Shown one piece after another: positions 1,727 through 10,153 of a DNA stretch of 64,000 nt (its first letter is position 1; each line of letters starts with the position of its first letter). The stretch comes from Phycomyces blakesleeanus NRRL 1555(-) (lineage: Eukaryota > Mucoromycota > Mucoromycetes > Mucorales > Phycomycetaceae), in NCBI RefSeq assembly GCF_001638985.1, contig NW_017265139.1, forward strand, positions 310,001-374,000, in the 5' to 3' direction. Both the position numbers and the translations under genes were made by a program. Below the pieces are notes generated by a model, which made no database searches, was not told the DNA's origin, and saw only the letters and a program-made list of their open reading frames with translations.

Positions 1727-2783
1727 TCAAGATAGTCTTGCTATACAATCGCCAGTAATAAATGCAGCTTCATTAAACGGAAATATCCTGCTCCCTACTA
1801 AAAAAATGTGTGTATGCAATAACTAAAAAAAATGACTATTATGAGTATCACATTTGATATGACAATTGCTGATCACTTACTTGTGCCATATACCAGCACG
1901 CCTCCAATAATACTCATAATCATAGCAGGTACAGTAATCTACACATATGTGGCTTATTGATGAGTATAATTTCTTCTATACAAATTAAAGTACAATAAGC
2001 CTTACCACTTCGGCGTGAGCCAGAACGAACGGAAGACCTAAAAAGAAAGAAAAAACAAAATTAGAAATTTGACATGGTCAATGCTTTAAGAATATGAGCT
2101 TTCTAATATTTACAAAATCCAGTAACAATCAGTATTCCGGTAATGAAGCGGCCAGCGTCTGTAAAGCTAGAGCTGTTATCACTATTATCAAAGTTAATTA
2201 ATAACTGAAGTAGATACTCCAAGGATATATATATAGCATACTCGTCATTCCACAGTTCTGAACCATGCTCTTCTGAGCACCTTCCAAATATCTCGTTGGG
2301 AAGTGGTGCAAGTACATAAGTAGCCACTATTCATGATGGTCAGTACAAAGCAATACACATAACACTATAAATTAAGACTTACCAACAAGCAAAGGCCACC
2401 AATTACTAAAAAAAAAAGTTAAATTTCAGTAATTTTACTAACATTTTAACCAGTTTATCGAGAAGCTTACTTATAAAGTGCACATGACAGAATAACAAAA
2501 AGGAATCCTATAGCAAGAACAAAAGCAAGACCGATAATGCTGAAGGAGAAAAAAAAATAGTATTCATGTGTTTACTCAATCAGTTTAATGCTCTTAACAA
2601 ATGCATTTAATGATGTGTTTTATTCGCTACTTACGCTAGAGAACAAATGAAAGCAAACGTCAGCCTTCATAAAGTATACTTTTACAATAAAATTCCATTC
2701 TTCTCTCATCCTCTCATAATTATACAGTCTTTCTCCAATGCTTGCTGTCCATCACTATCATTCTTACTTTTTAAGCCCGCCAT
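1727..2783 (-). CDS. VPS55: Vps55/LEPROT family endosomal membrane protein
   Basis: The assembled protein is 140 aa, the length usual for Vps55. It reads MAGLK-T-IIGLAFVLAIGF, SCALYNNWWPLLV, VATYVLAPLPNEIFGRC, DAGRFITGILIVTGFCLPF, VLAHAEV and ITVPAMIMSIIGGVLVYG, that is, four hydrophobic segments with the family's conserved order. Vps55 acts with Vps68 on late endosomes in cargo transport to the vacuole; metazoan relatives are LEPROT/LEPROTL1. Exons on the minus strand: 2783-2768, 2635 (a single base), 2539-2471, 2405-2383, 2326-2242, 2181-2114, 2037-2006, 1938-1881, 1797-1727. The sum is 423 nt and phase is kept at every junction only if the one-base exon at 2635 is used. The extreme C-terminus (after VLVYGT) is the least like the family, so the last exon is less certain. 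Confidence 0.88.
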
Positions 2784-3292
2784 CGTTATAATGTATCAGT
2801 CAAAACGCAACTAAAAACGAAAGAAAGAGCTTATCGGAGATTTGTCTTTATTCTCGTAACCCCCTCAAAACAAATGTTGTAATTTTCTCTTTTGCCCTAC
2901 TCATTCAGAGAACTTTAATAAATCTGAGCCTGTCACAGCTCCATACAAACAAAAAATTATTCTCGTAACCAAAACCGCGACGTCATTTCAGACTGTTCGC
3001 TTTACTTCATCAGAAAAAGAAGTATACCTTCAATCCTTATTTTCATATTGCTAGTCATAACCTTTCACAATTCACCATCTATTTCACCATTTCTTTTTAT
3101 TTTCATATCTTCTAAACCCGCTCTCTATTATAAGTAAGGTAGAAATAATGGCAGTTTTCAATATTTTATTTGGTGAATTTAGGAATATCCTTATTCTTGA
3201 AAACAAAGTCTATAAGACTTATTAGATGCTTGTGTATGGGTTCATTAATTTTTGAAAAAGAGCCTATTAGCTCAAAAATTTGCTTAAACAGC
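2784..3292. other. Upstream region of VPS55 with a dispersed repeat
   Basis: No gene is seen. The stretch holds the repeated phrase TTCTCGTAACC (about 2851 and 2960). A segment at 2918-2957 recurs at 63870-63911 (see repeat entries). A polypyrimidine-rich block runs 3060-3130. Confidence 0.4.
2918..2957 (+). repeat. Dispersed repeat, copy 1
   Basis: An 11-bp block (ATAAATCTGAG), a variable spacer of 9-10 bp, then a block of about 21 bp beginning GCTCCATACAAACAAAAA are shared with 63870-63911 in the same orientation. Both copies lie within a few hundred bp of a T(n)A(n) palindrome. This is probably a fragment of an interspersed repeat. Confidence 0.5.
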
Positions 3293-3949
3293 TTAATACA
3301 TAAGAGATTTTTTTTTAAAAAAAAAAACTCTGAAGGCTATAAATCTAGACAACAAATTAGTCCCAGGATATTGAAAAAAGCGACCCAAGGTTTTGCAACT
3401 TGGAATATGTCCTTTTGGTATAATTTCTTTTCGAACTTGATCGGATACCAGTTGCACCTTTTCTTTGATGAGCGTTCGATATTGGGGCTTTAAGATTGTT
3501 TCCAACTTTATCTTTCTTGTTATGGTGGTATGATTTCCCAGCAGTGCTTGCACTTTCTCCTGCTTTCTTGGGTTATGACTGAAACACTCTTTTGATCGTG
3601 AGGTTTTATAACCATTCTGGTAGCAACTGGAGCATACAACTCTACTCTCTGATTGTCGACCCTCGATACCCTTTCGTTTTGCATCAAGATTTTGCTTCTT
3701 TTGTCTCCTTCTTTTCATATTCTGTAGGTCTCTTATGCTTTGTATCAACTATAGTATGTACATGAATATTAAATATAGGGAAACCTTATGGACAGCCTGG
3801 ACAGTCTGAACGTATGCAACGTCACTCATTATTAGTATTTTATGGTTACACGTATTTTTTTTGGGTTGTGGGTCAGACTTTGTAACAATCTTACGAGAAC
3901 GACGTTTCCTGGTGGGGGGACGACATTTATATATAACCGAATTAATCAA
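3293..3949 (-). pseudogene. Relic of a multicopy Mucoromycota protein family with a zinc-knuckle-like motif
   Basis: Two adjoining open stretches on the minus strand (3949-3749 and 3748-3293) are rich in Lys/Arg. The second has a CxxC...C pattern (VCSSCYQNGYKTSRSKECFS HNPRK) followed by a segment with TRKIKLET and KPQYRTLIKEKV. This resembles, from memory, the N-terminal part of a large uncharacterised family found in many copies in mucoralean genomes. The coding stretch runs through a T(9)A(11) palindrome (3308-3327) into low-complexity residues, which suggests truncation there. I cannot name a function. It could instead be a live gene with an intron near 3750. Confidence 0.35.
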
Positions 3950-4679
3950 TCGTGGCTACATGTCCGGGGTCCGGTGTCTTTCTCTAATCCTTCAGGGCAA
4001 AATGGTGTGTCCTGAAAAACCACAATATATTCATTGTATGCATTGGCTTTACTACTTCGTGTTTATATATATCTCCAGGAACCTAACACTCATTATTTTA
4101 AGATCCACAGTCTGTGTTTGGGCAACTTAATTATAAAATACTGTCTCATACGAAAAACAAATCCTGTATATTCAATTAATAGCAGTTTGCGTCCTAAATT
4201 TAGACTTGACAATAAAGAAATAACAATTAGTCCCAATTACACTATATCAATAGCCAGTTATGCAGAAGATAATAAAGAGTTGTTGTCATTATACACTTTG
4301 TACTGCAATTTTGTTGGATATATTACTATCTATTATCCTTCTTACGCGTATCATGTTTTTCTCTTTCACCAAATTATATTCCCAGAGTCTGACAGTACAG
4401 ACTGGTAAGTAATCCTCATCCACTTTTTTTTGCAAAGCACAAAAGAAAATCTTTATGAGTATTTTATACCCTGGCTGGTGTTAATTATTATAATAAGAAT
4501 GGATCCTTAGGGACCAGATAGAGTTATTCCATGCTGGCAAAAAGGTCAAGATTTGTGGTCCGGTAGAATCAAAATGTCCCCCCCCCCCACCAAGAAATGT
4601 CGTCTCCCTAAAATTAATGATTACAAATAGCTAGGAAACTTTAAAAGCGGAGACTTCTGCTGTTCAATTTGAGTCAATA

Positions 4680-8906: not shown

Positions 8907-9261
8907 GGTTATAGAAAAAGAGTACAAGTAAGAGTGAGTGAGGGTTATAAGAATAAGAAATGAAAATTTCAAAGTGACGTACAGTTAAAGCTGTTGAACG
9001 TATCAGATAGGAAATCTATTCAAAGGCCGTTGACTTGTCTTTTTTTATATATATATATTTTTATATATATTTTAAGCAAATCGCTAGCATAGGTTTTGGC
9101 AATGACAGCATGTACGATGGATGTTTAAAACGTACGTTATTTACTTTGATACAACATCACTTTCAATGAAACATACTAATTACAATGTGGAGAAATACGA
9201 TTTATTGTGCTTTTTATTTAAAACAAAATATAAAAGAATTTGAAAGTCGCAAAGTTCCCAT

Positions 9262-10153
9262 TTACTTTCTCTGCTTCTGGGACAAGAAATCAGTGAACTC
9301 CTGGTAAGGAACCTTGGAGAACTCGGTTTCTTCCCAAAGGTCGGGAGTCAAGAAACCGTAGGTGTTACCAATAGCAGCAAAGGTAGCCTTGACAAAGTTA
9401 CCGAGAGTACGGGTAGAGCCACGAGAAGTAGTATAGCAATCGGTGATACCAGCCAACTGGAGAACCTTCTTGGGGGTAGGAGCAGCAACGATACCAGTAC
9501 CACGAGGGGCAGGGACAAGGCGGCACAAGGCGGAACCACACTTACCGGTAACCTTGCAGGGAACGGTGTGAGGTTCACCGAGGGCAGAACCCCAGTAACC
9601 ACGACGGACAGGGATGATGGAGAGCTTGGCAAGGATGATGGCACCACGGATAGAGGTGGCAACTTCCTTGGAGCACTTGACACCAAGACCAACATGGCCA
9701 TCGTGATCACCAATGACAACAAAAGCCTTGAAGCGGGTACGCTGACCAGCGCGGGTCTGCTTCTGAACAGGCATGATCTTCATGACCTCATCCTTCAAGT
9801 TGCTAAGGAAGAAATCAACAATTTGGTACTCCTTGATGGGGAGGGAGAAAAGGTAGATCTCCTCGATGGACTTGATCTTGCCAGCTTTGACAAGACGACC
9901 AAGCTTGGTAACGGGGACCCTAAATTAAAGTCAGTACCCTTATATGACTTTTCTTTTTTTTTGTAGGTACATACCACTCGGTCTTCTCATCGCCACGACG
10001 ACCACCACGTCCACGGGCACCGCCGCGACCACCACGTCCACGAGCGCCACCACGTCCAAATCCTCCGCGTCCTGTTCAATGGACATGGTGTGAGGGCCAT
10101 GTATGGGATGGACTTGAAGATTACTTACTATCGGCCGGTGCAGTGTCAGCCAT
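9262..10153 (-). CDS. RPS2: 40S ribosomal protein uS5 (S2)
   Basis: Three exons (10153-10129, 10071-9975, 9919-9262) give 259 aa. The N-terminus is a short acidic start followed by an RGG-rich tract ([17 protein letters not shown]) typical of eukaryotic S2, a usual site of arginine methylation. Next come [35 protein letters not shown] and the S5 double-stranded RNA-binding domain ([37 protein letters not shown]). The C-terminal S5 fold follows ([37 protein letters not shown]). uS5 sits near the 40S mRNA entry site and helps decoding fidelity. A first exon of only 25 nt is typical of fungal ribosomal protein genes. Codon use is strongly biased to C-ending codons, as expected for high expression. 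Confidence 0.96.

Follow-up and report, generated by a model that had tools for sequence, protein, structure and literature searches.

The closest described counterpart of the exon treated here lies in the VPS55 gene of land plants, where a one-base exon has RNA-seq and RT-PCR support and a conserved donor, GTRAGT, in the available part of the source (PMC8831610). According to the same text, the Arabidopsis protein that lacks the one-base exon loses 13 N-terminal residues. In the alga Zygnema, RNA-seq evidence for the VPS55 one-base exon appears in the accessible part of a second report, which gives none of 45 plant microexon types for the Chlorophyta (PMC11096116). In the fungus Fusarium, the nuclear gene CYP621A has borders of phase 1 and phase 2 that do not allow a join, and one base restores a conserved codon that deposited models render wrongly. 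The available part of that report counts the Fusarium case as the second known, with the plant VPS55 exon unmentioned in that part (PMC12940212). In Arabidopsis APC11, a frame-essential base between AG and GT forms an exon for which sequential intron removal is proposed in the accessible text (PMC4674806). The placozoan gene cox1 also contains an exon of one base (PMC5436844, available part); this exon is mitochondrial and therefore not a spliceosomal case.

In a window of 64,000 nucleotides of the Phycomyces blakesleeanus NRRL 1555(-) genome, the VPS55 gene very probably has an exon made up of the C at 2635 alone, with a GT-AG intron of 132 nt before it and one of 95 nt after it, as judged from DNA and deposited protein sequences. 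This exon joins a known, very rare kind of exon. It shares with the plant exon the gene family, the single base near the N-terminus and the frequent lack of annotation, as far as the plant case is described in the available text, and the plant donor GTRAGT is like the GTAAGT of Phycomyces (PMC8831610). The published VPS55 one-base exons in the sources at hand come from plants and Zygnema, whereas Phycomyces is a fungus. The plants described there have a second isoform or copy without the base, whereas one VPS55 locus was found in Phycomyces.

The Fusarium exon shares with that of Phycomyces a fungal nuclear setting, unjoinable phase-1 and phase-2 borders, restoration of a conserved codon and wrong deposited models. 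It differs in being a G (AG-G-GT) in an ascomycete P450 gene and in being confirmed by RNA reads and aligned in at least 20 orthologues (PMC12940212, available part). The APC11 exon resembles that of Phycomyces in its position between AG and GT, need for frame and proposed mode of removal, but is an A in a plant gene and was proven with GFP constructs (PMC4674806, available part). Fungal stwintrons, as described in the texts available, resemble the Phycomyces pair in that adjacent introns are removed in succession, but there one intron splits the splice site of the other, with no exon base between. In literature searches, with most subscription journals outside their reach, no one-base exon was found for a fungal VPS55 or for any Mucoromycota gene.

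Gene layout and reading frame

VPS55 is coded on the minus strand at 2783-1773 of the window (Table 1) and is the only locus matched in the genome search for this gene. The whole protein matches the Vps55/PF04133 profile with 163.5 bits over profile positions 1-119 of 120 (cut-off 24.6). Exon 1 has the MAGL[KR] start common to relatives, and its donor reads A/GTAAGA (a slash marks the exon border). Exon 3 starts C/ATT ATC after TCTCCTTCAG (CAG) and therefore needs phase 2.

The direct join of exon 1 to exon 3 is out of frame and reads MAGLKTLSVLLLFLL before a stop after 15 codons, in agreement with the original prediction. No GT-AG intron joins exon 1 and the conserved exon at 2539-2471 in frame. 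Once the C at 2635 is included, phase is kept across the nine exons, which yield an intact Vps55 followed by a stop, and the rebuilt translation contains the MAGLK-T start that the prediction had given. The protein is 133 aa long, not 140 aa as had been claimed. The introns on either side of the C, 1a and 1b, fall at phase 1 and phase 2 of one codon. The Pfam score was rejected as an argument for the one-base model, since the scores are 163.5 vs 163.2 bits and the profile begins at residue 7.

Table 1. Features of the VPS55 locus of P. blakesleeanus, numbered by position in the window
Feature	Position	Strand	Description
Exon 1	2768..2783	-	16 nt, phase 1; ATG GCG GGC TTA AAA A = MAGLK + 1 base
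Intron 1a	2636..2767	-	132 nt, GTAAGA ... TTGTTCTCTAG
Rival GC donor CA/GCAAGC	2744..2745	-	judged not used; 0.8 bits
Possible branch site CTGAC	2659..2663	-	some 25 nt upstream of the 3' end of intron 1a; weak
Putative single-nucleotide exon C	2635..2635	-	middle base of codon 6, ACC = T
Intron 1b	2540..2634	-	95 nt, GTAAGT ... TCTCCTTCAG
Exon 3	2471..2539	-	C ATT ATC GGT ..., IIGLAFVLAIGFLFVILSCALY; Vps55 profile match
Exons 4-9 and introns	1773..2405	-	rest of Vps55 and stop; translation, profile match
Exon 4	2405-2383	-
Exon 5	2326-2242	-
Exon 6	2181-2114	-
Exon 7	2037-2006	-
Exon 8	1938-1881	-
Exon 9	1822-1773	-

Elsewhere in the window, an imperfect inverted repeat at 3887-3919 and 4583-4615 (33-nt arms, 79% complementary, 663 nt apart) lies in a gene-poor stretch and is possibly a small mobile element. 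An open frame of 240 aa at 9244-9966 (+) runs antisense over a ribosomal protein S5 family exon at 9262-9924 (-) and is probably a by-product of codon bias.

Splice sites around base 2635

The 228-nt interval between exons 1 and 3 (2767-2540) contains 20 AG, 11 GT and one AG-N-GT. This sole occurrence reads AG/C/GTAAGTAG and sits at 2635, where the lone acceptor-C-donor had been predicted. The base is flanked by one usable AG and one usable GT, as in a single-nucleotide spliceosomal exon.

Splice matrices were built from 29 introns of the Phycomyces genome, of which 20 are from TCP1-family genes, 6 are uncontested VPS55 introns and 3 are from a neighbouring gene. The TCP1-family genes gave 24 introns, with 4 dropped at a total score below 8, and 6 more exon gaps without a solution. 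Three of the four introns of the neighbouring gene were taken; the fourth had mis-set borders. The reference set leans to the consensus because its sites were chosen with a generic fungal matrix. Within it, GTAAGT is the commonest donor (10/29), TAG is the commonest acceptor (23/29) and G is the most frequent base before the donor (18/29). A splice-site model self-trained on the open reading frames of the window drifted to nonsense and was dropped.

Both splice sites of the one-base exon are of ordinary strength for the Phycomyces genome. Against the 29 reference introns, intron 1a has its donor at rank 16 and a middling acceptor at rank 15, and intron 1b has its donor at rank 17 and its acceptor at rank 26. 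A branch motif CTRAC is present within the last 60 nt of only 6 of 26 reference introns, so the CTGAC of intron 1a counts for little.

When micro-exons are limited to 60 nt, with a GT donor and at least 40 nt of intron on each side, five in the interval have 3n+1 bases and no stop. The best of them is the one-base exon, at 13.9 bits, and the runner-up has -0.1. In 20,000 dinucleotide shuffles, a one-base exon as good appears 18 times and any such micro-exon 136 times. Removal of GT-AG introns in one or two steps was also tried, with minimum values of 2 bits for donors, 0 bits for acceptors and 40 nt for introns and with junction-rebuilt sites included; the product with the one-base exon is the sole one in frame. 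The original prediction had found no other acceptor, among those it tried, that keeps the frame without a stop. This stands for the GT-AG removals tried, in which base 2635 is needed for the frame, but one poor GC-AG single-intron solution exists, with its donor at 2745.

Other accounts of the interval were considered. The length of 228 nt was rejected as an argument against an intron there, as 3 of the 29 reference introns measure 219-246 nt. Nested solutions of the stwintron kind were sought in the interval and none keeps the frame. A zero-length (ratchet) recursive splice site does not describe the locus, where one base separates AG from GT.

Across both strands of the 53.5-Mb genome, YYYNYAGNGTAAGT occurs at 93 places, which corresponds to an expectation of about 2e-4 for each strand of an interval like this one. 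A reversed-pattern control occurs 139 times, so YYYNYAGNGTAAGT is not enriched in the genome. All 93 places were scored for further one-base exons with codon and splice-site models, and no candidate is claimed; this screen is powerless, since 79 places gave a one-base solution and VPS55 itself came 36th among them.

Protein models and rival explanations

The deposited protein P0001 (PHYBLDRAFT_158151, P. blakesleeanus NRRL 1555(-)) is from a contig of 2,433,215 bases, taken as the DNA of the window. It reads MAGLKS, and its sole difference from the window model is S for T at residue 6. The window DNA yields P0001 only with a non-canonical TA-AG or GT-CA intron. P0002, from a P. blakesleeanus contig of 1,838,063 bases, reads MAGLKT. 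All 160 of its residues are reproduced from the window DNA with the C as an exon and not without it. Two further choices in P0002 are doubtful: intron 5 (2241-2182) is retained in frame, and the last acceptor is a later one, which gives a different C-terminus. The C of P0002 may have been chosen by a gene predictor and not on RNA evidence. P0003 is 5'-partial, with IIGL as its first residues, and belongs to a P. blakesleeanus contig of 521,791 bases. The P. blakesleeanus strains UBC21 and L51 have PacBio assemblies under the accessions JBDFSA000000000 and JBCLYO000000000, as given in the available part of their description (PMC11258239), and we infer that P0002 and P0003 derive from them.

The homologue set consists of 205 different proteins (the best 120 of 368, all 71 and the best 120 of 1627), each representing a 90% cluster. 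A fixed pattern defined a join as clean when the MAGxK start and the IIxLAF core are separated by one residue. Among the matches listed, 149 of the 205 proteins have clean joins, with T in 137 (including P0002), S in 9 (including P0001) and R in 3. The other 56 of these matches comprise 33 with the core after another start and 23 without the core in the first 75 residues; the pattern missed some plain T joins (e.g. P0043, P0137 and P0169). Mucoromycota by entry name account for 53 of the matches listed; clean joins number 18 among them (T 6, S 9, R 3), and the other 35 lack one. The remaining 152 have T in 131 and are not clean in 21, so that, among the matches listed, clean joins are far rarer in Mucoromycota than among the remaining entries. 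MAGLK-T had been proposed as the expected N-terminus. By these counts T suits the family at large, not specially Mucoromycota, and the S of P0001 is not odd by itself.

DNA of relatives' VPS55 genes was absent from the viral contigs searched, and the genome contigs contained one fungal contaminant, L005. This intron-bearing fungal VPS55 (2835-3560 of NYXK01000211.1) lies on a contig filed under the Deltaproteobacteria isolate CPC1, which is therefore fungal contamination. The ascomycete-like L005 sequence has no intron at the place in question and reads AAA ACC ATC ATC, with the codon that Phycomyces makes from A + C + C. NCBIfam returned no family for four of the relatives' models.

The best surviving alternative is that one base is missing from the assembly or the strain where exon 1 ends. 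The real sequence would then be AAAAAG/GTAAG with a plain phase-2 intron and a MAGLKS protein, and AG-C-GT would be coincidental. The S of P0001 agrees with this, as do the rank of S as the commonest residue in clean joins of named Mucoromycota (9/18 among the matches listed) and the frequency of G before the donor (18/29). The same alternative predicts S in P0002, yet this protein, from another contig, reads T and agrees with the window when the C is included. P0003 comes from a third contig and likewise lacks a join to exon 1, and the coincidence would arise in about 18 of 20,000 shuffles. A base error near 2768, which the original prediction had named as a possible refutation, is made unlikely by P0002 and P0003; P0002, known as a protein only, is the strongest evidence against such an error in NRRL1555. 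The missing-base explanation has little chance of being correct. It would not expect AAAAAGTAAG at this place in other P. blakesleeanus assemblies.

A GC-AG intron from 2745 to 2540, giving MAGLKSKNDSDGH-IIGL and a protein of 140 aa, is the sole in-frame single-intron GT/GC-AG solution. Its donor, GCAAGC, scores 0.8 bits, below all 29 reference donors. It inserts seven residues found in none of the 149 clean models among the matches listed, and the three deposited P. blakesleeanus models listed all do without it. Use of this intron is very improbable. TA-AG or GT-CA borders are exceptional, and the use of such an intron, with the deposited MAGLKS correct, is scarcely credible: it reproduces P0001 exactly, but a fully canonical solution is present in the same interval and P0002 reads T. 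The missing-base and non-canonical explanations both predict the transcript AAAAAGCATTATC. With the one-base exon, the predicted mRNA junctions are AAAAACCATTATC when the C is included and AAAAACATTATC when the exon is skipped.

Hints in relatives, proposed mechanism and possible age

Gene models commonly miss a first exon of 16 nt, and long-read assemblies carry indels. In Cunninghamella P0089, MAGLR is followed by exon 3 read in the frame that the direct join gives in Phycomyces. A one-base shift recovers 23 of 24 core positions, the other shift recovers 16, and 40 shuffled controls per shift give at most 14. P0121 and Mortierella P0128 join exon 1 to an exon starting TG GCN (MAGLR-M-ATY and MAADLK-M-ATY), which would fit an exon 1 ending in phase 1. 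P0121 is labelled Rhizopus arrhizus, but its identity is 96% with Mucor plumbeus P0010 and 82% with Rhizopus delemar P0011, and it is possibly a misnamed isolate. P0010 itself runs on as MAGLR-SK, which would fit A/GTAAR. The Cunninghamella, Mucor-like and Mortierella models hint at the same one-base deficit.

Ten models among the matches listed enter exon 3 from upstream with S just before the core (P0008, P0011, P0018, P0020, P0021, P0053, P0059, P0126, P0159 and P0164). The residues preceding this S are N, Y, F, T, N, T, Y, V, Y and H. The S would be compatible with YAG/Y at phase 2; P0164 is from Basidiobolus, outside the Mucoromycota. Lichtheimia P0122 and Rhizophagus P0028 have T-Y-V after MAGLR or MAGVK, which would fit AC/GTATGT, where exon 1 keeps the C and a single phase-2 intron follows. 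A single phase-1 intron would fit Calcarisporiella P0129, with S-E-H ... L-A. No simple fit was found for P0016, P0019, P0024, P0048, P0116, P0142, P0162 or P0188. The Q before the core of P0016, a Rhizopus microsporus Vps55, suggests a phase-0 intron and a third phase at this place. In its source, P0016 is wrongly named as a histone H3 methyltransferase. As signs of age these patterns are indirect, being readings of errors in the gene models of others.

Intron definition would remove introns 1a and 1b one after another, since an exon of a single base can scarcely have its acceptor and its donor in use simultaneously. Sequential intron removal is argued for APC11 in the accessible text (PMC4674806). 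Either order would work, as the second step would keep a complete site, AAAAAC/GTAAGT or TTCTCTAG/CCATT. Skipping of the base leads to the out-of-frame join and its early stop, so faithful inclusion is required for Vps55. The one-base exon may have originated when a phase-1 intron was gained one base ahead of an existing phase-2 intron, from a Lichtheimia-like state. It may also have arisen when a lost border base was rescued by a cryptic AG-N-GT, as the available text proposes for CYP621A (PMC12940212), or the pair may be an old one that was inherited.

A VPS55 one-base exon that predates the plant-fungus split, was kept in plants, algae and several Mucoromycota and was lost elsewhere is considered rather unlikely. 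It would have been kept in Phycomyces, with hints in Cunninghamella, Mucor-like fungi and Mortierella, and each loss would be the loss of one or both flanking introns. Lineages that seem to have the phase-1 intron only (Calcarisporiella) or the phase-2 intron only (Lichtheimia, Rhizophagus) would then show apparent intron sliding by one base, and the one-base exon would be a standing intermediate of such sliding. Counted for common descent are the shared gene, protein end and donor and the short first exon before the base. The plant exon may lie a few codons closer to the N-terminus than the Phycomyces exon, which falls in codon 6. Counted against common descent are this possible codon difference, the lack of an intron in L005 at this place, and the absence from Chlorophyta that the available part of the Zygnema report gives for its tool.

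Deposited VPS55 models are wrong or forced in many Mucoromycota. Confirmation of the Phycomyces exon would mean that VPS55, a small trafficking gene, carries an exon of one base in two kingdoms. In that case the exon would have been kept for an immensely long time, or VPS55 would repeatedly form exons of this kind. The spliceosome of an early-diverging fungus would then be able to handle an exon that leaves no room for exon definition.
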